The position numbers and the translations under genes are program-made. DNA of 12,313 nt from Methanosarcinales archaeon (lineage in GTDB: Archaea > Halobacteriota > Methanosarcinia > Methanosarcinales > Methanosarcinaceae): the NCBI GenBank assembly GCA_012329085.1, contig JAAXQB010000039.1, positions 1 through 12,313 on the forward strand, written 5' to 3'. Below are positions 3,052 to 12,313 of the stretch, in pieces (the first letter of the stretch is position 1; every line of letters starts with the position of its first letter). Under the pieces are notes generated by a model that was not told the origin of the DNA, did not search any database, and was given only the letters and a program-made list of their open reading frames with translations.

Positions 3052-3065
3052 TTATTTTCCTTTTT

Positions 3066-3090
3066 GTTCCAATCCCCTGGAATTTGGAAC
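3066..3090 (-). promoter_or_regulatory. intercistronic hairpin between cooC and cdhD
   Basis: A perfect 7-bp stem GTTCCAA/TTGGAAC encloses an 11-nt loop with a CCCC/GGGG run. It lies between the cooC stop and the cdhD ribosome site. It is followed on the minus strand by A-rich rather than T-rich DNA, so it is not a terminator. A role as an RNA processing or stability element that raises cdhDE relative to cooC is inferred. It resembles the C-rich element at 6557-6580 (shared core TCCCCTG plus AATT). Confidence 0.5.
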
Positions 3091-3107
3091 GAATTAAATT
3101 ATAATCG

Positions 3108-3872
3108 CTATTTTTCAATTGATTTTTCTTTTATTTTCTCGACAATCTTACCAACAGCTTTTGTTGCATCGCATTCTTCTAATTTAAGTAAAGATTTTCC
3201 TTCAAATGCATATTTTTCTACTTGCTGGTCATAAGGAATAAGCCCAATAAATTCAAGTCCAATAGAATTAGATTTAGCCAATATCTCTTTTTCATATGAA
3301 TGATGAATCCTATTTGCAACGAGATATAAATGTTTAAATCTAGCACCAAGGTCAGTTGTCATTTTTTTTATTCGCTCTGCAGCATTAAATCCATGCGAAG
3401 ACATATCAGTCACAATAATCATATCATCTACACCAAGTGTGGTTTTTCGACTTATATGTTCAAGACCTGCTTCAACATCAATAATAATATAATCATATGA
3501 TTTTGTCATAGAATCTATGACCCACCTAAGCACATTATTTACTGCACAATAACACCCTGAGCCTTCTGGTCGCCCCATAACAAGTAAATCAAATTCATCA
3601 AGTTCTTCTACTGTTTCAAATATTTTTGATTCGAGCCATTTAGACCTATTCACGCCCTCTGGCAAATCATTTTGTTCAGACATCAATTCTTCTTTAATAT
3701 CGCCAACAGTAGATTCAACTTCAACACCCAACATATCAGGCATATTTGAATCAGGATCGGCATCAATTACAAGAATATTATTTTCGCCATCTAATATCAA
3801 TTTTCGTATAATAAGGGCAGAAAGTAATGATTTTCCTACTCCTCCTTTTCCAGATACTGCTATAATTCTCAT
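3108..3872 (-). CDS. cooC: CooC-type CO dehydrogenase nickel-insertion ATPase
   Basis: A P-loop ATPase of the MinD/SIMIBI class that helps insert nickel into CO dehydrogenase/acetyl-CoA synthase. Visible motifs are the deviant Walker A G-K-G-G-V-G-K-S (8-15), D-A-D-P-D (37-41), the CooC-specific C-Y-C (C107, C109) proposed to bind Ni/Zn at the dimer interface, V-N-N-V-L-R after it, and the Walker B-like I-I-I-D-V-E-A-G (129-136). The length of 254 is normal. Its place between cdhC and cdhD is the usual one in Methanosarcinales-type operons. The ribosome site is weak (TGTGAT, rather far upstream). It is the only gene in the set ending in TAG. In-frame TAA follows after two codons (CGA TTA), so amber read-through would barely change the product. 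Confidence 0.93.
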   Translation of the reverse strand: MRIIAVSGKGGVGKSLLSALIIRKLILDGENNILVIDADPDSNMPDMLGVEVESTVGDIKEELMSEQNDLPEGVNRSKWLESKIFETVEELDEFDLLVMGRPEGSGCYCAVNNVLRWVIDSMTKSYDYIIIDVEAGLEHISRKTTLGVDDMIIVTDMSSHGFNAAERIKKMTTDLGARFKHLYLVANRIHHSYEKEILAKSNSIGLEFIGLIPYDQQVEKYAFEGKSLLKLEECDATKAVGKIVEKIKEKSIEK

Positions 3873-3895
3873 AATTTTTTTATTATCACATTAAA

Positions 3896-4009
3896 CGCAC
3901 ATTTTCTTTTAAGAATGTGCTTCCGAAGAAGAATGGGCGTTATATATAATTTGTAAAGCTCATTTGGAATAAATGAGCGTTTGCTCGTTCTTAAAGAGAA
4001 CGAGCGTTT
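3896..4009. repeat. three palindromic repeat units upstream of cooC
   Basis: Unit 1 is in minus orientation: stem GCACATT (3897-3903)/AATGTGC (3914-3920), with GTTTAA behind it on the minus strand. Unit 2 is in plus orientation: GCTCATTT (3958-3965)/AAATGAGC (3971-3978), followed by GTTT. Unit 3 follows directly: GCTCGTTC (3983-3990)/GAACGAGC (3998-4005), followed by GTTTA. The stems differ by paired changes that keep base pairing. All would be present in the 5' leader of a cooC transcript that starts upstream of them. Confidence 0.85.
3940..3949 (-). promoter_or_regulatory. possible TATA box for cooC-cdhDE
   Basis: TTATATATAA reads the same on both strands and lies about 70 nt upstream of the cooC ATG. 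With the usual archaeal spacing, transcription would begin near 3915-3920, inside the repeat hairpin at 3897-3920. The terminator-like hairpin behind cdhC makes a promoter for cooC desirable, but in DNA this AT-rich a TATA-like string is weak evidence. Confidence 0.3.
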
Positions 4010-4142
4010 ATTTTATATTAAGATAAAATTCCTTTTTTCTCGTAATTTGTTCAAAAAATCCATTCAAGATAAATGTTCGTAAATAATCATTTTTTCACTG
4101 CATATAATTTATAAAAGTATATACTGAGAGAAATTTTCAATA

Positions 4143-4167
4143 GCTTGTTTGAAACAAACAAGCGTTA
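4143..4167. repeat. palindromic repeat unit (variant stem)
   Basis: GCTTGTTT (4143-4150)/AAACAAGC (4156-4163), followed by GTTAT. This is a compensated variant of the GCTCATTT/AAATGAGC stem: both arms differ from the commonest form but still pair perfectly. Behind it (4178-4190) comes GTTTAAGAAAAT, a spacer string also found beside the repeats near 6370. Confidence 0.8.
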
Positions 4168-4394
4168 TCTCGAAATATGTTTAAGAAAATTTCTAATTTT
4201 TATTCTAAACGAGCATCAGCATATAAAATATAATTTTTTTATTTGATATATAAATTAAAACAAATATTTTATTTTTAATCTGCGTGAATCCTGAGGATAA
4301 TATATTTTTAAAACACACGCTGATGCAAATGTTTTATTTGTATAATCTATGAATTAATATATTCTCTATTTTCATTACACATAATTTATAAAAT

Positions 4395-4595
4395 TTATTT
4401 ACTCATAGAAAAATTTTTAATTTTATGCTCACTTTCATTTTCACCCAATTCAATATCGCACTCGATTTTAACACCATTAAGTTCCATTGAATCCATTTCA
4501 ATATCACACTCGATTTTAACACCATTAAGTTTTATATCATAATTATTCAAAAGTTCATTTAATCTATGAATGGATAACAGTTCTGTAAAATTCAT
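4395..4595 (-). CDS. small hypothetical protein with a 16-residue tandem duplication
   Basis: A 66-codon frame between cdhC and cooC that I do not recognise. The start is supported by GGAG 10 nt upstream of ATG, the same spacing as in cdhC. An amphipathic N-terminal part is followed by two adjacent copies of a 16-residue unit beginning L-N-G-V-K-I-E-C-D-I-E; the core is identical, and at DNA level a 48-nt period has only a few differences. The tail is charged and ends S-M-S-K. The alternating pattern V-K-I-E-C-D-I-E suggests a beta strand. No signal peptide or membrane segment is seen. It may be a real accessory small protein or a chance open frame produced by the duplication in repeat-rich DNA. 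An orphan reading in the same direction as the cdh genes is consistent with either. Confidence 0.4.
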   Translation of the reverse strand: MNFTELLSIHRLNELLNNYDIKLNGVKIECDIEMDSMELNGVKIECDIELGENESEHKIKNFSMSK

Positions 4596-4721
4596 TATAT
4601 GTATTCTCCATATGATATATATTTCATAAAATCTTTAATAAATCATTTGGAACAAATGATCGTTTGTTCATTTGGAATAAATGAGCGTTTACACACCCAT
4701 AAAAAGAATGTGCAACATTCA
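4596..4721. other. short gap between cdhC and the small ORF, with two repeat units
   Basis: Two palindromic units in tandem, both in plus orientation: ATCATTT (4642-4648)/AAATGAT (4654-4660) followed by CGTTT, then GTTCATTT (4666-4673)/AAATGAGC (4679-4686) followed by GTTT. The first has a compensated stem end (ATCATTT/AAATGAT instead of CTCATTT/AAATGAG). No gene fits here. Confidence 0.75.
4701..4720 (-). terminator. hairpin plus T5 directly behind cdhC
   Basis: On the minus strand, one base after the cdhC stop, GAATGT-TGC-ACATTC forms a perfect 6-bp stem with a 3-nt loop (4706-4720) and is followed at once by TTTTT (4701-4705). This looks like an intrinsic terminator and would separate cdhABC from cooC-cdhDE, at least in part. 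The loop is tight and the T-run short, so leaky termination or an RNA 3'-end stabiliser is equally possible. Confidence 0.55.
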
Positions 4722-6287
4722 TCATTTTTTTCGAATTATAATTTGATCTATATGTATTTTTGCATTTTTAAGAACTATCTTAAAACTTCCACTCGGAATT
4801 CCTTGCATTCCTGTCATTGTAGGAAGAACTTGCTCTACAACTTCCTTTACCCCTGTTACAATTTCAGAGTCTTCTTTTCCAGCTTTAATTTTAAGTGTAA
4901 GTGCATCATTGCCCTCACTACTAATAGTTCCTTCTATTTTATCTTCATTTTTAAGCTTATTTGCAACTTTGACAATTTGCTCTTTTGTGATTCCAACAAC
5001 ATCAGCAACTTCATCAAGATATATTTCATCTCTTGGTTTTATATATTCTAAAAATTGAGATTCCATTTCTTCTGTGATTTCAAAATCCCATCGTTGTGTG
5101 ACAGGGTGTGTGGCTTTCTCTAAAAATGATTTTAAAGATTCTGTATCTTTGACAGTTTCCTCTGTTGCAATTTTATTAAAAATATCTTCTGGAATTGCAT
5201 CTTTATATATTTCTTTTATAGTAGAAGGCAACCATACAATGCGATTCCATCCACCGTCTGCTTGAAGAAATTTACTAGACCGCATATAATCCATTGCAAT
5301 TCCGAGTATCCCCTCTGTTTGTTCGCCACCGCCTGTTTGAGATGCCATTCTTGAAAATGGAACTCCCACTGGCGTTTCATCTGTGAAATCTCTATGAACT
5401 ATTCCAATTCCATCTACTTCTGGAATATAAAATGCAAGAGATTCAAAACAGCCGCAAGAAGTATGTGGAAATCCAAACATACTATGTAAATAAAATCGCT
5501 CATTATCTCCGCCTGACCTTTCTACAACTAATGCATTTACGCCTTCATACTCCCCTTTTTCTTTATCCAATACTTTTCCTTTAATCACAGGAACCATTGC
5601 ACCTTCTGAATCTGCTTTTGATGCCGCTCTTGCTTCTATCCAGCTTATTGCACCACAAAGACCCTTTCTTTCAGGTGTAATTACGCATACATGGGGTGGC
5701 GCAAAACTTTGACACATAAGGCATGAATAAAACTCTTCAACATCACTTTCTTTAAGATCTCGTGTTTTTTTATCTCTTGCTTCATGGGATTCTTTTGCAA
5801 TTTGTATTACTTTTTTGGCTTCAGTTTCATCAGTTATAATTGTAATTTGCATTTTCTCAATAAGATTCCATTCAGTTTTAAATAAATCAAGTAATGCAGT
5901 TCCAAAATGAGTTAGTGTAAATCCTTTTTTGATTGCATCCTTGCTAACTCTGCACCAAATATCACTTCTTTGATTTAAATGCATAAATCCTTCAATAAAA
6001 TTACAATATTCGTGAGTTTTTCTTTCTATAACTCCTTCCATATCTTCTTCAAGCTTCTCACCTGCAACTTCCATAAACATTACAAATGTTGATTTTGTGC
6101 CTTCTTCCATGTCTTTAATATCTAATCCACGAAGTGTGACTTTACCATCTTCAATATCATCTAAATTTGCAAGTTTTACAAGCTCACATTTTAATGCTAC
6201 TTTTGGACCTCCAAGTTCTGCATACATCTCCTTTTTTCTAATTCTTTCTCCTTCAAATTGAGGACCTACCTCAAATGGCAATTCCAT
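4722..6287 (-). CDS. cdhC: ACDS acetyl-CoA synthase, beta subunit (CdhC)
   Basis: Catalyses synthesis or cleavage of acetyl-CoA at the Ni-Ni-[4Fe-4S] A-cluster. The ligand set is complete: C189, C192, C201, C211 (C-L-M-C ... C ... C) and C278-G-C280 in H-T-S-C-G-C-F-E, which hold the cubane and the two nickels. I start it at ATG 6287, 521 codons, because AAAAGGAG lies 10 nt upstream and the protein then begins M-E-L-P-F-E-V-G-P. The frame stays open to ATG 6356, but those 23 extra codons are translated palindromic repeat. It is about 50 residues longer than the roughly 470 I recall for Methanosarcina CdhC. The extra length lies between about 400 and 480, where residues 418-470 look like a small winged-helix fold, before the usual C-terminal segment. 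It is isolated from cdhB by about 320 nt of repeats and from cooC by about 850 nt. Confidence 0.95.
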   Translation of the reverse strand: MELPFEVGPQFEGERIRKKEMYAELGGPKVALKCELVKLANLDDIEDGKVTLRGLDIKDMEEGTKSTFVMFMEVAGEKLEEDMEGVIERKTHEYCNFIEGFMHLNQRSDIWCRVSKDAIKKGFTLTHFGTALLDLFKTEWNLIEKMQITIITDETEAKKVIQIAKESHEARDKKTRDLKESDVEEFYSCLMCQSFAPPHVCVITPERKGLCGAISWIEARAASKADSEGAMVPVIKGKVLDKEKGEYEGVNALVVERSGGDNERFYLHSMFGFPHTSCGCFESLAFYIPEVDGIGIVHRDFTDETPVGVPFSRMASQTGGGEQTEGILGIAMDYMRSSKFLQADGGWNRIVWLPSTIKEIYKDAIPEDIFNKIATEETVKDTESLKSFLEKATHPVTQRWDFEITEEMESQFLEYIKPRDEIYLDEVADVVGITKEQIVKVANKLKNEDKIEGTISSEGNDALTLKIKAGKEDSEIVTGVKEVVEQVLPTMTGMQGIPSGSFKIVLKNAKIHIDQIIIRKK

Positions 6288-6297
6288 AAATATTATA

Positions 6298-6306
6298 CTC
6301 CTTTTT
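6298..6306 (-). promoter_or_regulatory. ribosome binding site that decides the cdhC start
   Basis: Minus-strand AAAAAGGAG, 10 nt upstream of ATG 6287. No comparable site precedes the upstream in-frame ATGs (6329 and 6356), which lie in palindromic repeat sequence. Confidence 0.75.
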
Positions 6307-6310
6307 AATA

Positions 6311-6534
6311 GTTCATTCGGAAAGCTCATTTGAAACGAATGAGCGTAATCACTCATTCTTTCAAAACGAGTTTAAGAAAATCTTTGATAGCTCGTTCGGA
6401 AAGCTCATTCGGAACGAATGAGCGTATGAGAAAATCTCTGATTTTCGAATGAACGAGCGTTTGCTCATTTGAAACAAATGAGCGTTTGCACATTCTCGAA
6501 GAAAATGAGCGTTATTCGACCAAATAAGCGTTAT
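6311..6534. repeat. cluster of palindromic repeat units upstream of cdhC
   Basis: All units are in plus orientation. GCTCATT (6324-6330)/AATGAGC (6338-6344). GCTCATTC (6403-6410)/GAATGAGC (6416-6423), nested inside a larger perfect stem GCTCGTTC (6390-6397)/GAACGAGC (6451-6458). GCTCATTT (6463-6470)/AAATGAGC (6477-6484) followed by GTTT. A decayed unit at 6488-6510, and the half-unit AATAAGCGTTAT at 6523-6534. Spacer text recurs: AAAATCTTTGATAGC (6377-6391) is identical to 11238-11252. The nested arrangement suggests one unit inserted into, or duplicated within, another. Confidence 0.85.
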
Positions 6535-6566
6535 CTTGTTTCTCATTGGTTTTTATGTTTCAATTC

Positions 6567-6601
6567 AGGGGACTTTAAACTACAATGCATGATTTTCCCC
6601 T
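6567..6601 (-). promoter_or_regulatory. inverted repeat downstream of cdhB
   Basis: AGGGGA (6567-6572) and TCCCCT (6596-6601) can pair across a 23-nt loop that holds TTTAAACTACAAT (6574-6586) and an ATGCAT palindrome. It begins 7 nt past the cdhB stop. No T-run follows, so it is not an obvious terminator. A processing or stabilising role is inferred. Confidence 0.35.
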
Positions 6602-6607
6602 ATATTT

Positions 6608-7150
6608 TTATTTTTTAAATTCTTCAATAATCGCATTTAATTTTTTGCCATTTATTAAAATAGACATGTTGGCACTTGGGTGGTATCTTGGGCAAATTGT
6701 CATTGTATCTAAATGTGGTGCAAAGTGTTTCAAAGTTGATAAGCCTTGCTCCCCAAGTGGACAAAGAACACCAAAAAATATTACAAGGTCATGCTGCCCT
6801 TCATTTCGTATGCCATCCCACGAAGAATCTCTTAGCCTATCAACAATGTTAATAACAGGCATAAACGCATCAGGTTTAAAATCTCTTTCAAGAAATCCTT
6901 TTATTGCATGCCCTACGGCAACTACGGGAATATCACACACCTTTAAAAGTTCGATAATATAATCTATCCCTAACTTATCATCATATTTAGAACTTAATAA
7001 AGAAGGACCAAATATAAATAATGGTCGTTTAGCTTTTTTTATTCTCTTTACATAGAGTTCTGGCGTGACTACTTTTGGAAGTTCTCCTTTTCCAAGACCT
7101 CTATTAATTTGCCAACAATGTTTAATATTTACTTTTGCAACATCTACCAT
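6608..7150 (-). CDS. cdhB: ACDS epsilon subunit (CdhB)
   Basis: The archaea-specific small subunit that binds the CO dehydrogenase CdhA in the alpha2-epsilon2 complex. It has a DHS-like, nucleotide-binding-type Rossmann fold and a proposed part in electron transfer or FAD contact. The 180 residues (family about 170) contain typical segments: R-P-L-F-I-F-G-P (42-49), I-P-V-V-A-V-G-H-A (74-82), D-L-V-I-F-F-G-V (121-128), and the C-terminal I-C-P-R-Y-H-P-S-A-N-M-S. The start ATG lies 6 nt after the cdhA stop, with GGAAGTGA within the end of cdhA as ribosome site. The two are therefore translationally coupled, matching their 1:1 complex. Confidence 0.95.
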   Translation of the reverse strand: MVDVAKVNIKHCWQINRGLGKGELPKVVTPELYVKRIKKAKRPLFIFGPSLLSSKYDDKLGIDYIIELLKVCDIPVVAVGHAIKGFLERDFKPDAFMPVINIVDRLRDSSWDGIRNEGQHDLVIFFGVLCPLGEQGLSTLKHFAPHLDTMTICPRYHPSANMSILINGKKLNAIIEEFKK

Positions 7151-7156
7151 TATAAT

Positions 7157-9463
7157 TCACTTCCATTTATGTTTAAATCGTTCAAGGCTTGTAGGATCTG
7201 GGATTTTACTTGGTTGCCAATCCATCAATTTAAGCTCTTCCATCATTTTTTTCTTTCTAGACATTGGTAAATCTGATACACTTCGGACAAAAACATACCA
7301 ATCATCAGGAAGAGTGCCAAAGTATTTTTCACTCAAATCAAAATAATGCGTAAGCTTTATCATTCTTCCCTTTGGAGTATCATTAGGACGAATGCACATT
7401 CTTGCCGCCATTACTATACACTCTTCTTTTGACTCTGCCGCATAAATAAGGTGCTCAGGTGCAGGTCCTATGAAACACTCTTCGCCATTTGATTTAACAT
7501 CGAATGCATTCCAATCTTCTTTCTTGTCTTTTCTACCAAGATATAATCTTCGATACTTAGATGCGTGTGGTCCTATGATTGCAGGAATCCCCCATCTATT
7601 ACATCCAACAGCAATTGCTTGTGCCTTTTGAGAGTATGCACCCCATGCAATTCCAACAGCTCCAATCCTATGCAAAATATAATCTGCTATTTCTTCATAA
7701 TTTCCTCTTAGATTTCTTCTTGCAAATATGCCTGCAATCTTAATACATGCCCCCGTTATATGGGAATTTGAAACACATGAACCAACATTACATAATCCAC
7801 CTTCTTCAAATCCTCCCGGATATTTTTCATATAAAGATACTCCATTTTCATCCTTATACATCGCAATATCCATTGCCGCACATCCTGATGCAACAACAAT
7901 GTATTTTCGTTTAAGGAATTCTTCTGCCATTTCTGCAAGTGCTCCCCTTCCTTTTGGATAGTTTGCACACCCAATAAATGCAATAACGCCTGGAATTGTT
8001 CCAAGCACAATTGGTGCCCCAACGATTCTTATTTCCGTATCTAATATAGGACCCCTTCCAGACCTTAGCATGAATTTTTCTTCTTTTATTTCTTTTTCTG
8101 ATGCTTTTTGTATCATGTCAAGTATAGGAATGTCCCACCCACATGCAGATTCACATACACCACATCCAAGACAAGTTTGATATACTTCTGAAAGTTGTGA
8201 AAAATCCCCTGTTCTTGCAAGTTTCATAGCATCTCTTATTGGTAAATCAAGTGGGCAAGAATTATCACATTCTTTACACAATTTACAACTTTTTGCAAGT
8301 GCTATTACTTCATCCGTATCAGGTATTGCTTTTATAGATTTTCTTTTTATAGATAATTCTTGTGCAACTCTAACAGCTACGATTCCTACCTTTTCCATGT
8401 CAAGTATCAATGCACCGGGTTCGCCTTCAACCAAATCTTTTATAATTTCATCTACTGAATCATTGGTTCTATCGGGCAAACCATAACAAATTTTGTCAGA
8501 AGTTGCAATAACTGCCATTTTAAGCTTTTTAGCTTCTTCAAAAGTATCTAATCGCACACATTGTTCATCAACAACAATAACATCAGGAACGCCAGATCGT
8601 ATAAAATACAAATGTTTTGAAATATGTCCTACAACCTTTGCAGATTCTTCATATCGCGTCAATTCATGTGCCGTACAACAAAGTCCGCATATTTCAATTT
8701 TATCCAAAACATCATTATCTGTTGCATAATTAATAACTTCTATTCCCGGAACTACATTGTGCCCAACACAAAGAACCACTGGTTTATTTTTATCAACAGT
8801 CCCCATCCCAACTTCAACCAATGGTGCATTAGGGTCTCCTTTTGGAAAATTATATCCTGAAATTTGAGCAAGTTCTGCCGCTTCCATGGCAACATGGTCA
8901 AGCATTCCTGCATGCATGGATTTTGATTCAAAATCTATATAATTGCTCTCTTGTCCTGTATGCACTGCTGACATACATTGAGCAATTTGTCCCTCCACAT
9001 AGATCATTACTTTTTTCAAATCTCCGATTGTTTCTGGTTTCATACCAAGAACAGTCATTATATTTGGTGCCGTATAATCAATAAAATTGCCAAGGTCTAT
9101 TTTAAAATCTGGACCGTGTTCTTCTATTAAGTGATCAATCATATGAGTCCCATGTGAGCCATGTGTTGCCGTTCCGATACAACTTGATAGATGATACATT
9201 CTTGCTTGTTGTGAGTCTATTGTTATTCCACATGCACCTTTCTTACCAGCTGTAAGGTCGCAAGTCCCATATGAACAAAGATTACAAGTATCGCCTTGTG
9301 GTGCATAAAATGGCTTGTATCTTTTCATTAAAAAGTAATCCCAATTTCTTAGCGTTGTTATAGAAGGTTCTGGAGTTGGACCCATAGGAGATTTCCAATT
9401 ATCCACTTCAATATCTTCTATGGTAAATGTGACATTATCTATTTTTGCAAGAGAACTTTTCAA
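7157..9463 (-). CDS. cdhA: ACDS CO dehydrogenase, alpha subunit (CdhA)
   Basis: Nickel-iron CO dehydrogenase: interconverts CO and CO2 at the Ni-Fe-S C-cluster and feeds ferredoxin. Numbered from the TTG at 9463, it shows the N-terminal cluster cysteines C60, C63, C68, C78; C-cluster candidates H235 (G-H-N-V), C263 (G-L-C-C), C499, C528 and C558/C563 (C-N-V-G-S-C); and two ferredoxin-type [4Fe-4S] motifs, C393-x2-C-x2-C-x3-C-P and C431-x2-C-x2-C-x3-C, found in the archaeal enzyme but not the bacterial one. The length is 768, and Methanosarcina enzymes are near 800. There is no ATG start. The frame is open back to a TAA at 9497-9499, with ATT (9493) and TTG (9463) as candidates. The only good ribosome-site match (GAGAGGG, 9501-9508) favours about 9493, or GTG 9489 if one base were missing. 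First gene of the cluster. Confidence 0.95.
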   Translation of the reverse strand: MKSSLAKIDNVTFTIEDIEVDNWKSPMGPTPEPSITTLRNWDYFLMKRYKPFYAPQGDTCNLCSYGTCDLTAGKKGACGITIDSQQARMYHLSSCIGTATHGSHGTHMIDHLIEEHGPDFKIDLGNFIDYTAPNIMTVLGMKPETIGDLKKVMIYVEGQIAQCMSAVHTGQESNYIDFESKSMHAGMLDHVAMEAAELAQISGYNFPKGDPNAPLVEVGMGTVDKNKPVVLCVGHNVVPGIEVINYATDNDVLDKIEICGLCCTAHELTRYEESAKVVGHISKHLYFIRSGVPDVIVVDEQCVRLDTFEEAKKLKMAVIATSDKICYGLPDRTNDSVDEIIKDLVEGEPGALILDMEKVGIVAVRVAQELSIKRKSIKAIPDTDEVIALAKSCKLCKECDNSCPLDLPIRDAMKLARTGDFSQLSEVYQTCLGCGVCESACGWDIPILDMIQKASEKEIKEEKFMLRSGRGPILDTEIRIVGAPIVLGTIPGVIAFIGCANYPKGRGALAEMAEEFLKRKYIVVASGCAAMDIAMYKDENGVSLYEKYPGGFEEGGLCNVGSCVSNSHITGACIKIAGIFARRNLRGNYEEIADYILHRIGAVGIAWGAYSQKAQAIAVGCNRWGIPAIIGPHASKYRRLYLGRKDKKEDWNAFDVKSNGEECFIGPAPEHLIYAAESKEECIVMAARMCIRPNDTPKGRMIKLTHYFDLSEKYFGTLPDDWYVFVRSVSDLPMSRKKKMMEELKLMDWQPSKIPDPTSLERFKHKWK

Positions 9464-9517
9464 TTCTTTGACTTTGAATGCTATTTCACTAATAAGTTAT
9501 CCCTCTCGTTTTTTTTA

Positions 9518-9527
9518 TTTTTATATA
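9518..9527 (-). promoter_or_regulatory. likely TATA box of the cdhA promoter
   Basis: Minus-strand TATATAAAAA. It predicts a transcription start near 9497, so the mRNA would have almost no leader if translation begins at 9493, or about 35 nt if it begins at TTG 9463. The box directly abuts the end of a palindromic repeat unit (9528-9549), so the BRE position falls inside the repeat. Methanosarcina cdhA has a long leader; an upstream promoter therefore remains possible here. Confidence 0.45.
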
Positions 9528-9553
9528 GCTCATTTAAGAATGAATGAGCGTTA
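9528..9553. repeat. palindromic repeat unit at the cdhA promoter
   Basis: GCTCATT (9528-9534)/AATGAGC (9543-9549), loop of 8 nt, followed by GTTA, plus orientation. Its outer end touches the putative TATA box of cdhA. Confidence 0.85.
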
Positions 9554-9560
9554 TTTGATT

Positions 9561-9573
9561 TTTAAACTACAAT
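9561..9573 (-). promoter_or_regulatory. 13-nt motif shared by the cdhA and cdhC upstream regions
   Basis: ATTGTAGTTTAAA on the minus strand, identical to 6574-6586 upstream of cdhC and in the same orientation. Neither lies in a palindrome unit. It could be a regulator site, a promoter element (TTTAAA as a TATA variant) or a trace of duplication. Confidence 0.35.
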
Positions 9574-9850
9574 CAATTTTTAAGATATGAGAAAAAATAG
9601 ATTGTAAAATTTATGTAGAAATTATTTATTTTTAAGTTTTAAAAAGGCAATCATACTTTGAAAATCTGTATCAATATCGAATGTTGCACAATATTTTTAA
9701 TTGTGTCATGACAAGATATGGAAAATATTTTTCGTTTTTTTTTGTAAATAGGGTTACTGATACATAAATTTTCAAATGTATTGTATTCTACATTATTAAA
9801 CATTATAATTCTTTTTATCAGTTATAAACTTTTCTTTATTTCTATCAAAA

Positions 9851-9891
9851 ATCAAAGATTTTTTCAAACGCTCATTCATTCTTAAATGAGC
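9851..9891 (-). repeat. palindromic repeat unit plus 20-nt spacer (left flank of ppk2 block)
   Basis: On the minus strand, a stem GCTCATT/AATGAGC (plus 9870-9876 and 9885-9891) is followed by CGTTTGAAAAAATCTTTGAT (plus 9851-9870). The latter 20 nt are an exact inverted match to 11230-11249 behind ppk2. Together the two copies bracket a 1.4-kb block that holds the miniature element and ppk2. Confidence 0.8.
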
Positions 9892-10288
9892 TATGAAAAA
9901 AGGAAAAAATAGAAATTATAAAAGAATCAAAATTGGGCATAATAAATAATTTACTGTTTTATTAACATTAAAAAGAAGTGGATTTTGTTAAACAATAATA
10001 AATTATTTCTTTAATTTCACAGCATCTACGCTCGCATGCAAAGAATCCATGACTTTCGTTCTTGTATGTTAGCACCTTGTTTGTTTCGTTAATTTCAACA
10101 TCACGAATATTGTTTTTCCATTAAAAACAAAATACAACTCAATCGAAATTATATTCAAATATGTATTTGACTATGGGATAAGTGCTATCGATAATATAAA
10201 TAAAAAAACTCAACTGTATGGTGTGAATATCTATTATTACATAAGTTAGATATATGATTGATTAGAATATATAATTAATATAAAACAA

Positions 10289-10423
10289 GGCACTGTTCCA
10301 AAATCCAGTTATTTTGGCATTTATTGCCTATACTAATTTTCTGGATTTATGCCTCTGATGGTCGAAATCTGTGCAAATCATTTTTGATCATTACTTTAAA
10401 ATAACTGGGAAAGGTATTGTGCC
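10289..10423. mobile_element. 135-bp miniature inverted-repeat transposable element (MITE)
   Basis: The imperfect terminal inverted repeats are 27 nt on the left (10289-10315) and 26 nt on the right (10398-10423), sharing GGCAC at the tips and CCAGTTATTTT inside. The element is flanked by a perfect 9-bp direct repeat ATAAAACAA (10280-10288 and 10424-10432), a target-site duplication. It has no coding capacity, so it must be mobilised in trans. The left tip GGCACTGTT matches the start of IS6/IS26-type ends (GGCACTGTTGCAAA), but those normally make 8-bp duplications, so the parent family is uncertain. It sits 49 nt upstream of the ppk2 start and may have separated the gene from an older promoter. 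Confidence 0.85.
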
Positions 10424-10472
10424 ATAAAACAAAAAGTTAGAATGTATATGATATTAAAAAAGGAAATTAAAT

Positions 10473-11228
10473 ATGAGTAAAGCAAAATGTAATGGAAAAA
10501 ATATTAATATAATAGATATAAATGCCATAGATTTATCTAAAAAAATTTCAAGAGCCGAATATGAAATTAAAATTAAAAGTTTGCAACTTGAATTACTGCC
10601 TTTGCAACTTGCCCTTAAAAATGAATCTAAAAAAAGAATGATAATTACTGTTGAAGGGTGGGATGCAGCTGGAAAAGGAGGTTCAATAAAAAGATTAGTT
10701 GAAAGACTTGACCCAAGAGGATATAAAGTATATTCAATTGCAGCTCCTGAACCAAATGAACAAAAAAGGCATTATATGTATCGATTTTGGACTAAATTAC
10801 CATTACCCGGAGAAATCGTTGTATTTGATAGGTCATGGTATGGGCGAGTTTTAGTGGAAAAAATAGAAGAATTTGCAAAAAAAGAAGAAGTTAAAAGAGC
10901 ATATGAAGAAATAAATTCTTTTGAGAAAACACTTGTTAAAGATGAAGTTATTGTTCTTAAATTTTGGTTTCAAATAAGTAAAGAAGAACAACTAAAAAGA
11001 TTTACAGATAGAAAACTAGATCCACTTAAATCATGGAAACTTACTGAGGAGGATTGGAGAAATAGAGAGCGATGGAGCGAGTATGAAGATGCAGCTCAAA
11101 TCATGTTTGAAAAAACACATACAAAACACTGTCCATGGCACATAATTGAATCCAATAATAAAAAATATGCAAGAATTAAATTCATTCAAACAGTAATCGA
11201 TGCTTTAAAATTAGCACTTTGTAAATAA
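10473..11228 (+). CDS. ppk2: polyphosphate kinase 2 family protein (PPK2)
   Basis: A soluble phosphotransferase that uses polyphosphate to phosphorylate nucleotides (or the reverse). Motifs: Walker A G-W-D-A-A-G-K-G-G (62-70), Walker B V-V-F-D-R-S-W-Y-G-R (116-125), and the lid region R-F-T-D-R-K-L-D-P-L-K-S-W-K (176-189). E-G-W-D-A-A-G-K-G-G and A-A-P-E-P-N-E resemble the catalytic domain of polyphosphate:AMP phosphotransferases, but this is one 251-residue domain, whereas the classical two-domain forms are about 500. Substrate preference (AMP, ADP or GDP) cannot be read off. The start has AAAAAAGGAAA a few bases upstream. It diverges from the cdh cluster. A miniature element lies just upstream and a palindromic repeat just downstream. 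Confidence 0.93.
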   Translation: MSKAKCNGKNINIIDINAIDLSKKISRAEYEIKIKSLQLELLPLQLALKNESKKRMIITVEGWDAAGKGGSIKRLVERLDPRGYKVYSIAAPEPNEQKRHYMYRFWTKLPLPGEIVVFDRSWYGRVLVEKIEEFAKKEEVKRAYEEINSFEKTLVKDEVIVLKFWFQISKEEQLKRFTDRKLDPLKSWKLTEEDWRNRERWSEYEDAAQIMFEKTHTKHCPWHIIESNNKKYARIKFIQTVIDALKLALCK

Positions 11229-11229
11229 T

Positions 11230-11274
11230 CGTTTGAAAAAATCTTTGATAGCCCATTCAGAATGAATGAGCGTT
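11230..11274 (+). repeat. 20-nt spacer plus palindromic repeat unit behind ppk2
   Basis: CGTTTGAAAAAATCTTTGAT (11230-11249) is followed by AG and a slightly decayed palindrome, GCCCATTC (11251-11258)/GAATGAGC (11264-11271), with GTT behind it. The left arm has one mismatch against the right arm. It is the inverted partner of 9851-9891 and also shares AAAATCTTTGATAGC with the cluster upstream of cdhC. Confidence 0.8.
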
Positions 11275-11294
11275 AATATATAATCTATAAATAT
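11275..11294 (+). promoter_or_regulatory. possible TATA elements for the methyltransferase gene
   Basis: AATATATAAT and TATAAATATT lie 30-48 nt upstream of ATG 11323. The second would place transcription start a few bases before the ATG, i.e. a leaderless or near-leaderless mRNA. That fits the lack of any Shine-Dalgarno sequence before this gene. Confidence 0.35.
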
Positions 11295-11322: not shown

Positions 11323-11928
11323 ATGAAGCAAAGAAAACTTGAAATACTTCTTCAAAAAGCACATAGTTTTGATAAACCCAAAGTACATCTTGAACAATAT
11401 CAAACACCTGCAATACTTGCTGCAGAATTGCTTCATTTTGCATATATGCATAATGACCTTGAAGGAACAGTGTATGATCTTGGTTGTGGGACAGGCATGC
11501 TTGCAATAGGTGCAAAACTACTTGGTGCAGAGAAAGTAGTTGGAATTGAAAAAGATAAAGATGCACTTAAAATAGCAAAAAAGAATGCAAAAATGTATGG
11601 CGTTGATATTGAGTTTTATTGTTGCGATATAACCGAAATCGAAGGTTTTGCAGATACGGTTATCATGAATCCACCGTTTGGGGCACAATCAAAAGGAAAT
11701 GATCGACCGTTTCTTAAAGTAGGTCTTAGCATAAGTAAAACATTATATTCCATCCATAATATAGGAAGTTATGATTTTATTAATAAATTTATAGATCCAA
11801 GTTTTATTGAAAATTGGTATGTAACAAATTTTTCTATAAAGCGAACCTTTAAATTTCATAAAAAAGATATAGAATGGATTAAAGTTGAAATATATCGAAT
11901 TATTTGCAATATGGAAAATGAAAATTAA
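11323..11928 (+). CDS. METTL5-like N6-adenine rRNA methyltransferase
   Basis: A class I SAM-dependent methyltransferase. SAM-binding motif I is D-L-G-C-G-T-G (52-58), with the acidic residue E76 at the end of strand 2 (V-V-G-I-E). The amino-methylation motif N-P-P-F (116-119) is followed by [12 protein letters not shown]. This closely follows the N-P-P-F-G...K-G-x-D-x-x-F-L pattern of METTL5, the enzyme that makes m6A in small-subunit rRNA. The segments E-Q-Y-x-T-P (24-29), Y-S-I-H (142-145) and K-F-H-K-K-D near the C-terminus also match that family. In eukaryotes METTL5 acts with TRMT112; archaea have a Trm112-like partner. The length of 201 is normal. The ATG lacks a ribosome site, consistent with leaderless translation. 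It could have another nucleic-acid target. Confidence 0.88.
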
Positions 11929-11938: not shown

Positions 11939-11946
11939 AATTGTAT

Positions 11947-12313
11947 TAGGAGTTACGCAGTTCAATAGAATGTGATAAAGTTAAGGTATGAACACACCAA
12001 AATGTAACGAAATAGATTACATCAATTTCTTGGTTGCGGCCCAGAAGGCATTCAGTGCTGTGGAAGCATCCAAGACGTATCCGGCTGGAGATGATGGGCC
12101 AGCGCATGATGCTTACACCCGTCTGCTGTACCGAATTCGATCGGATGGCGAAGCACTGTGGCCTGAGGTAGAGCCTCTGGTTGAACTTGGTAAGGGCTTG
12201 CTGATTGTTGACGACACCACGCTGGACAAATTCTATGCCCAGCAAATGGCGTTGGTCACGCGTCACTGGTCGGGCAAGCACGGACAGGTTGTCCAAGGAA
12301 TCAACCTGATTTC
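11947..12313 (+). mobile_element. left part of an insertion sequence, cut by the window edge
   Basis: From about 11947 the sequence changes abruptly to much higher GC, carrying a DDE transposase gene that runs off the window. The DNA AGGAGTTACGCAG near 11948-11960 is where the left inverted repeat probably begins, since it lies between the T-tract of the preceding gene and the transposase start. The exact end, target duplication and right half cannot be seen. Confidence 0.65.
11988..12313 (+). CDS. DDE transposase, N-terminal 108 residues (IS701/IS4-like)
   Basis: Translated from ATG 11988 (TTAAGG just upstream), the frame is open to the window end. It begins M-N-T-P-K-C-N-E-I-D-Y-I-N-F-L and contains G-P-A-H-D-A-Y-T-R-L-L, then L-L-I-V-D-D-T-T-L-D-K (the first catalytic aspartate region) and H-W-S-G-K-H-G-Q-V-V-Q-G-I-N-L-I. 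These are hallmarks of a widespread transposase group usually placed with IS701/IS4. The codon use is rich in G and C, unlike every neighbour, pointing to recent arrival from a different genomic background. The family call is from memory of the pattern. Completeness of the gene is unknown. Confidence 0.85.
   Translation, partial: MNTPKCNEIDYINFLVAAQKAFSAVEASKTYPAGDDGPAHDAYTRLLYRIRSDGEALWPEVEPLVELGKGLLIVDDTTLDKFYAQQMALVTRHWSGKHGQVVQGINLI

Follow-up and report, generated by a model that had tools for sequence, protein, structure and literature searches.

A contig of an uncultured Methanosarcinales archaeon (12,313 nucleotides, GenBank JAAXQB010000039.1; its full length is referred to as the window) carries the cdh operon on its minus strand and, dispersed between the genes, a family of hairpin repeats which is real and unusual. 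Thirteen units built on one plan, a hairpin of 21–24 nt followed by a short 3′ tag, were found between positions 3893 and 11275, in agreement with a first-pass annotation made from the letters alone, which had described about twelve such units at these places. We favour, with little more than even confidence, the interpretation that they constitute a lineage-specific family of non-coding stem-loop repeats similar to repetitive extragenic palindromes (REPs), which multiplied in the low-GC lineage of the window. In this scenario the units would have multiplied by DNA-level processes, including local head-to-tail amplification, and would have been copied or inserted into intergenic sites and into other units, the copies having arisen by insertion and not by slippage alone. 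They may persist where genes take no damage, since the gaps tolerate them. Transcription of the cdh operon probably yields RNA hairpins from the units within it, and any effect on the RNA would be secondary.

Architecture and placement of the hairpin units

Candidates were selected by the right arm and tag only (AATGAGCGTT, up to two mismatches, both strands), which gave 30 matches. Sixteen of them are intergenic and in the tagged orientation, five are mirror readings of units already counted, and one corresponds to degenerate unit 6348 read on the minus strand. Five overlap genes with a non-significant partner arm (P 0.18–0.80), and those at 295, 452 and 4550, the last within a small open reading frame (ORF), are likewise without a significant one. 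The left arm pairs with 13 of the 16 intergenic matches, counting G-U pairs, at 7/7 positions in ten and at 6/7 in three (4655, 6504 and 11265), which are singly weakly significant (P 0.035–0.05). An adjacent partner arm is missing at 3932, at 6452 and at 6523 (5/7). Seven of the sixteen have an altered right arm: AATGTGC, AACGAGC and AACAAGC are accompanied by a fully matching left arm, AATGATC by one matching at 6/7, AACGAGC at 6452 has its partner ca. 50 nt away around a nested unit, AATAAGC pairs at 5/7 and AATGGGC has no partner. Units 6488, 11251 and 4666 possess the consensus right arm, yet the first two contain one mismatch each and the third one G-U pair.

Counting G-U pairs, stems are unbroken over 7–10 bp in ten of the thirteen units, one mismatch being found near the stem foot in units 4641, 6488 and 11251, and loops are 3–5 nt long except in units 3893 (10 nt) and 6488 (ca. 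9 nt). The tag, previously described as constant, reads GTT in 11/13 units and GTA in two. The plan given in the first-pass annotation is also incomplete, as a second conserved part, an AT-rich linker of 20 nt near GTTTRARAAAATCTTTGATA, precedes or follows several units and in places folds into a small AT-rich hairpin. The units and associated elements are as follows (scan, right-arm-and-tag scan; R1, the covariance model described below).

3893 to 3920, minus: unit GCACATT/AATGTGC, 10-nt loop, tag GTTT (scan; R1 17.7 bits, outside the training set)
3958 to 3982, plus: unit GCTCATTT GGAAT AAATGAGC GTTT, 15-nt 5′ flank TATATAATTTGTAAA (scan, R1)
3983 to 4009, plus: unit GCTCGTTCT/AGAACGAGC, tag GTTT, head to tail with 3958 (R1 25.4 bits, outside the training set)
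4143 to 4167, plus: unit GCTTGTTTG AAA CAAACAAGC GTTA, two matched changes (scan, R1)
4641 to 4665, plus: unit (A)ATCATTTG GAA CAAATGAT(C) GTTT, outermost pair an A.C mismatch (scan, R1, covariation test)
4666 to 4690, plus: unit GTTCATTT/AAATGAGC with G-U, tag GTTT, head to tail with 4641 (scan, R1)
6310 to 6322, plus: left half-unit GTTCATTCGGAA, adjoining unit 6324 (repeat family D2)
6324 to 6348, plus: unit GCTCATTTG AAA CGAATGAGC, tag GTAA (scan, R1)
6348 to 6371, no strand assigned: degenerate unit ACTCATT..AACGAGT, running into the linker (covariance model, 20.8 bits on the minus strand)
6370 to 6389, plus: linker GTTTAAGAAAATCTTTGATA (D3, D7, I5)
6390 to 6462, plus: outer unit GCTCGTTC...GAACGAGC GTTT, its loop holding unit 6403 and an AT-rich hairpin (DNA fold)
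6403 to 6427, plus: nested unit GCTCATTCG GAA CGAATGAGC, tag GTAT (scan, R1)
6463 to 6487, plus: unit GCTCATTTG AAA CAAATGAGC GTTT, top match of the covariance model (42.5 bits)
6488 to 6514, plus: unit GCACATT/AATGAGC, one A.A mismatch, tag GTTA, head to tail with 6463 (scan, R1)
6515 to 6536, plus: degenerate unit AATAAGC GTTA (scan match at 6523, 5/7 pairs)
9528 to 9553, plus: unit GCTCATT TAAGAATG AATGAGC GTTA, upstream of cdhA (I1, scan, R1; outside the training set)
9866 to 9891, minus: inverted unit whose 22-nt hairpin is identical to that of 9528, then linker (I1, scan, R1; outside the training set)
11251 to 11275, plus: unit GCCCATTCA GAA TGAATGAGC GTTA, with a single C.A mismatch and the linker on its 5′ side, in the ppk2|methyltransferase gap (scan, R1)
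About 4622 to 4640, 4179 to 4197, 6424 to 6442 and 11231 to 11250, plus, and 9850 to 9868, minus: linker-like stretches

Perfect stems (at least 7 bp, at least two G/C, loops of 3–10 nt) are strongly enriched between the genes: the 2900 intergenic bases contain 15, compared with a mean of 0.85 and a maximum of 4 in 100 dinucleotide shuffles. The first-pass annotation had named equally many stems in shuffled DNA as the finding that would speak against the family, and these figures differ clearly from it. Coding DNA contains 6 perfect stems (shuffled mean 3.9, maximum 9; 60 shuffles). A much looser unit scan of the intergenic DNA on both strands gave 26 matches relative to a mean of 4.3 and a maximum of 10.

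The drift of the stems in matched pairs is supported by covariation above permutation, with the restriction that not every stem conforms, as documented by the A.A, C.A and A.C mismatches of units 6488, 11251 and 4641 and the G-U pair of unit 4666. Watson-Crick pairs occupy 87 of the 91 arm positions of the 13 units; when the right arms were permuted by a script independent of any MAFFT alignment, the mean was 78.4 and the maximum 86 (20,000 permutations), and with unique arm pairs only 52/56 positions remain Watson-Crick paired (P 0.001). Since MAFFT put the left arms of the 13 units in the wrong place, the covariance model R1 was built from the eight units of equal length only. Among these, five of nine pairs show changes on both sides and 97% of the cells pair; the covariation score was reached by none of 500 shuffles, and six controls with slid structures gave no both-sided changes. 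All five window units left out of the training set are recovered by R1 (E 4e-7 to 0.009). The annotation had concluded from the retained pairing that the hairpin itself matters. Compensated stems, however, do not prove a function of the hairpin, because template switching, reported to create and maintain hairpins (PMC8794818), can restore stems neutrally; pairing alone thus does not establish the earlier conclusion.

All 13 units are intergenic, as had been claimed for the window, although intergenic DNA accounts for only 24% of it. They form eight clusters in five gaps over 7.4 kb and occur in both orientations. Three of the gaps lie within the operon, cdhB|cdhC (320 nt), cdhC|small ORF (126 nt) and small ORF|cooC (522 nt), one upstream of cdhA (within 1009 nt) and one between ppk2 and the methyltransferase gene (94 nt). 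Units are absent from cooC|cdhD (71 nt), from cdhA|cdhB and cdhD|cdhE (6 nt each) and from the 486 nt downstream of cdhE. In the cdhB|cdhC gap, units and linkers fill 225 of the 320 nt by the limits set in this analysis. The described prevalence of one orientation holds for single units (11/13 on the plus strand) but is weak when clusters are counted (6 versus 2). Their reported position around ppk2 is correct for one good unit between ppk2 and the methyltransferase gene, whereas unit 9866 on the minus strand is located 0.6 kb upstream of ppk2.

In three related operons (L033, L034 and L001), the cdhB|cdhC gap comprises merely 3, 3 and 1 nt. Most simply, the extra length of the 320-nt gap would have been gained in the lineage of the window. 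The view that the units break up a normally compact operon fits this gap, but the relatives are not compact throughout: in the nearest genomes found, G066 (0.7 Mb) and G007 (a 1.07-Mb contig), cooC and cdhD are 0.8–0.9 kb apart and cdhC and cooC 258 and 304 nt.

Arrays, related copies and proposed local amplification

Close neighbours in the window are mostly arranged head to tail, with a spacing of 25 nt in the pairs 3958/3983, 4641/4666 and 6463/6488. A more complex arrangement is found at 6390–6462, where the halves GCTCGTTC and GAACGAGC GTTT of one unit flank a whole unit plus linker, and the DNA fold of 6370–6462 consists of a stem closing two hairpins (z −4.7). The junction between the half-unit and its neighbouring unit (6304–6347) is repeated at 6383–6426 with 89% identity over 44 nt (D2). 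Upstream of cdhA, units 9528 and 9866 face each other with 43-nt arms that are 91% complementary and separated by 314 nt (I1). Unit 9866 is, in addition, embedded between outer inverted repeats, ATTTCTAT...ATAGAAAT and TTTTTTCA...TGAAAAAA, forming a multi-level palindrome at 9835–9935; 10 of 200 shuffles fold as well as this stretch.

The covariance-model search of relatives proposed in the first-pass annotation was carried out; it revealed related hairpins in G066 and none in the cdh regions compared. The L033, L034 and L001 stretches gave no match at E up to 5, and 23 stretches (454,882 bases: L001, L033 and 21 of G007) gave six matches at this threshold, the best at E 0.045. The order-level sample consisted of 11 genomes, G066 and G007 included; at E up to 1, R1 matched in nine of them, mostly at chance level. 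The best matches are two in G066, scoring 27.3 and 26.9 bits (E 2.1e-4 and 2.8e-4, respectively, relative to this genome), and one in G072 with 22.2 bits (E 0.009). The two G066 copies reside on different contigs and are identical over 33 nt, after which their flanks diverge. One of them (L059) shares the exact 15-nt 5′ flank of window unit 3958 and the other 9 nt of it; the next best of 2537 window positions compared with the G066 flank likewise reaches 9 nt. As the flank lies outside the model, the shared 15 nt represent separate evidence of common descent. Beside one G066 copy, an inverted unit with a 10-bp stem and the tag GTTA is present (22.2 bits, E 0.0015 in 148 kb), which is not among the matches of the order-wide search.

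A de novo search of 400 of the 1067 kb of G007 revealed no comparable hairpin family. Stems of at least 8 bp number 54 in these 400 kb (0.135 per kb; highest arm-heptamer count 4), 6 in the window (0.49 per kb; highest count 3) and 14 in 146 kb of G066. A flank pattern with three mismatches was uninformative, as it matched 11/11 genomes and its reversed control was also frequently found. No viral carrier emerged: the strict consensus matched 11 viral contigs, in the retrieved stretches of which a looser script detected one such hairpin each and, in one stretch, a second, unlike hairpin, and neither the tandem nor the linker pattern matched any viral contig. In two viral contigs (L004, 5289–5318; L009, 226–255), a hairpin is flanked by the tag at either end (AACGCTCATT...AATGAGCGTT); these double-tagged hairpins, single copies in the stretches examined, are perhaps due to chance. 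Rfam gave no match in the window at the gathering score. Literature searches on REPs and REP-associated tyrosine transposases (RAYTs) in archaea, on extragenic palindromes and Methanosarcina, on head-to-tail palindromes and on archaeal miniature inverted-repeat transposable elements retrieved no description of the family, which is not proof that there is none, and a search on double hairpin elements yielded unrelated papers only.

Several points weigh against a REP-like family multiplied by insertion. The strict consensus pattern was found in 0/392 phylum genomes and 0/11 order genomes, and the core hairpin pattern in 6/392, more than once (twice) only in G066. Because the two patterns each recover only 4/13 window units, divergent relatives would be missed and the absence applies to close forms only. 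Three copies in the 0.7-Mb G066 draft do not make a high-copy family, and the count of thirteen units covers the window. Neither a target-site duplication nor an excised site nor a transposase able to move the units was seen, and slippage alone could yield the arrays. Statistically, the looser unit scan separates less well, its 14 plus-strand matches being equalled by the highest of 200 whole-window shuffles (mean 6.7, maximum 14), the covariation is drawn from paralogous copies in one window which were partly chosen for pairing arms, and just four of eight unit stretches folded as single-strand DNA beat all 200 shuffles, the other four reaching z −1.8 to −2.3.

The same observations can be read as a local satellite, in which a palindrome of this region became numerous through replication slippage together with intrastrand template switching, its arms remaining complementary by the same processes and neither transposition nor function being involved. 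We regard this as unlikely, yet worth serious consideration. The 25-nt spacing and the duplicated 44-nt junction are features such a process would leave behind, template switching is a reported source of hairpins and of their maintenance (PMC8794818), and the sole transposase among the scanned window proteins is an IS701-type fragment at the contig end. Slippage alone, however, does not spread units across genes, and the units are distributed over five gaps, kilobases apart and in both orientations. A related 33-nt element at two sites on different G066 contigs also speaks against a purely local origin.

Relation to known palindromes and possible effects on RNA

The annotation had compared the units to REP elements moved by Y1/RAYT transposases, a mode of movement that is not supported here. 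GTAG REPs carry the guide GT[AG]G 0–2 nt 5′ of the hairpin (PMC6006769), and this motif is absent 5′ of all 13 units, whose 5′ flanks end in ATA (5), TTT (4), AAA (3) or GAA (1); read on the opposite strand, the units are preceded by the complement of the tag, AAC (11) or TAC (2). No Y1 domain was detected in the nine window proteins scanned, where the IS701-type fragment is the only transposase, and PF01797 was detected in 3/11 order genomes and in neither G066 nor G007. As it fails the GT[AG]G tag test, the window family does not belong to the RAYT-REP family.

With regard to other hallmarks of REPs, location between genes applies to 13/13 units, and related copies elsewhere amount to three in G066. 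The rule given for short-hairpin REPs, a fully paired basal stem of at least 7 nt, a loop of 2–5 nt and at least three G/C in the first four stem bases (PMC6006769), describes 4/13 units with Watson-Crick pairs and 7/13 when G-U pairs are counted. REPINs are inverted REP doublets with a spacer which form one hairpin; the inverted pairs seen here number one in the window (314 nt between its arms) and one close pair in G066, while close neighbours in the window are mostly arranged head to tail. The CGTC REP signature, a terminal CGTC, TGTC or CCTC together with AT at stem positions 1–2, is lacking: the tag is (C)GTT or (C)GTA and the stems mostly start with GCTC.

As reported for bacterial GTAG REPs and REPINs (PMC3733652), the units are short intergenic hairpins with a one-sided tag that occur as singletons, dimers and clusters, and those repeats also comprise sub-families with alternative complementary stem residues, stems of mostly 6–9 bp and mostly very short loops. 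They differ in that the window tag, GTT(T/A), is on the 3′ side with no 5′ GT[AG]G, no Y1 transposase is linked and the host is an archaeon. CGTC repeats, for which the same source gives 8–9 bp stems, 4–5 nt loops, a tag at one end and apparently no dedicated transposase (PMC3733652), resemble the units in these respects; the latter have the tag (C)GTT, stems without the near-invariant AT and neighbours arranged head to tail, not head to head. Palindromic intergenic elements in archaeal genomes have been predicted with RepRanger (PMC12306157); these predictions are broad, and the accessible part of that report describes no tagged, nested or covarying family like the present one. Tandem repeats of Borgs are also organized head to tail in AT-rich DNA of archaea-linked elements, some with predicted hairpins, but their units are exact copies, around half of them within ORFs (PMC9879509), whereas the window units are varied, palindromic and intergenic. 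Covarying tagged hairpins are thus already known, and the family described here differs in its tag, its head-to-tail habit, its nesting and its host.

Improbable in our assessment is a primarily regulatory role, in which hairpins of the cdh mRNA direct selective RNA processing and stabilisation and thereby set the amounts of CdhAB, CdhC and CdhDE. The distribution of the units would fit, as they separate cdhB from cdhC, cdhC from the small ORF and the small ORF from cooC, and do not separate cdhA from cdhB, cooC from cdhD or cdhD from cdhE; in two gaps, the mRNA strand has a better fold than any of 100 shuffles (z −6.4 and −5.2); and intergenic stem-loops are reported to set the stoichiometry of a complex in Clostridium cellulolyticum (PMC4423207). 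This distribution may, however, reflect only the room to insert, because the operon gaps without units are short (6–71 nt). Comparable units also occur beyond the operon (11251) and in inverted orientation (9866), R1 gave no match in the L033, L034 and L001 operons, and in the single gap folded on both strands the non-mRNA strand likewise beats its 100 shuffles (z −4.7). A role in the subunit ratios of carbon monoxide dehydrogenase/acetyl-CoA synthase (CODH/ACS) is possible, though unsupported.

Very little credence is given to a more far-reaching scenario, where a selfish archaeal hairpin with its own tag (GTT/AAC) and its own single-strand copying route, inserting into its own loops, broke up the carbon-fixation operon and was co-opted as mRNA spacers that fix the proportions of the CODH/ACS sub-complexes.

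Should the family prove mobile, archaea would possess a REP-like element lacking the GT[AG]G guide, and spreading hairpins would have turned an operon gap of 1–3 nt into one of 320 bases. Two testable questions follow: by what agent tagged hairpins are copied without any known RAYT, and whether the stoichiometry of the complex changes once hairpins have entered the spaces between its subunit genes.

Transcription terminators or protein-binding sites scattered by selection are hardly credible: the units are indeed stem-loops between genes and coincide with two of five terminator-like sites (3982 and 9528), but these sites, defined by a bacterial-type pattern, are not in excess (5 versus a shuffled mean of 3.9), both coinciding ones are on the plus strand, against cdh transcription, and nested and tandem copies inside an operon are ill-suited to termination. 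Promoter-like sites are not in excess either (42 versus a shuffled mean of 47), as judged by a sigma-70 pattern unsuited to archaea.

Gene context and lineage

The genes of the window are arranged as follows.

9463 to 7157, minus: cdhA
7150 to 6608, minus: cdhB
6287 to 4722, minus: cdhC
4595 to 4395, minus: small ORF
3872 to 3108, minus: cooC, encoding a CooC-like ATPase
3036 to 1852, minus: cdhD
1845 to 487, minus: cdhE
10473 to 11228, plus: ppk2, encoding a PPK2 kinase
11323 to 11928, plus: methyltransferase gene
11988 to the window end, plus: start of an IS701-type transposase gene

Among the 120 best homologues listed, no protein exceeds 77% identity to the CdhC of the window; the CdhC relative P0002, encoded on a 3.5-kb contig, is 77% identical over 86%. 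The CdhA proteins of G066 and G007 are 70% identical to its CdhA. The GC content is 32% in the window versus 46–47% in the cdh regions of these two genomes.

The last ca. 30 residues of the window CdhC match a region past the cdhC stop in G066/G007 (L033, ca. 4665–4760; L034, ca. 8914–9009), where it can be read as the last part of a distinct short ORF. The small ORF between cdhC and cooC encodes 66 residues with an internal duplication of 16 residues (48-nt direct repeat D8). The ORF is similar to a short segment, possibly the start of CdhD, that in other archaea lies ca. 1 kb away from cdhC (42% over 33 residues, E 0.006), and a short ORF is also present in the matching cdhC-cooC gap of G066 and G007. 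The cooC-cdhD interval, 71 nt in the window, spans 2904–3813 in L033 and 7241–8044 in L034, where ORFs of 199 (3059–3658) and 123 (7274–7645) residues are listed, respectively.

The region with the start of the IS701-type transposase (11946–12313) has a higher GC content than the rest of the window. Over about 0.1 kb, it shares 73–79% identity with plasmid records from Meiothermus and two cyanobacteria, and it may be a recent arrival or an assembly join at the contig end.

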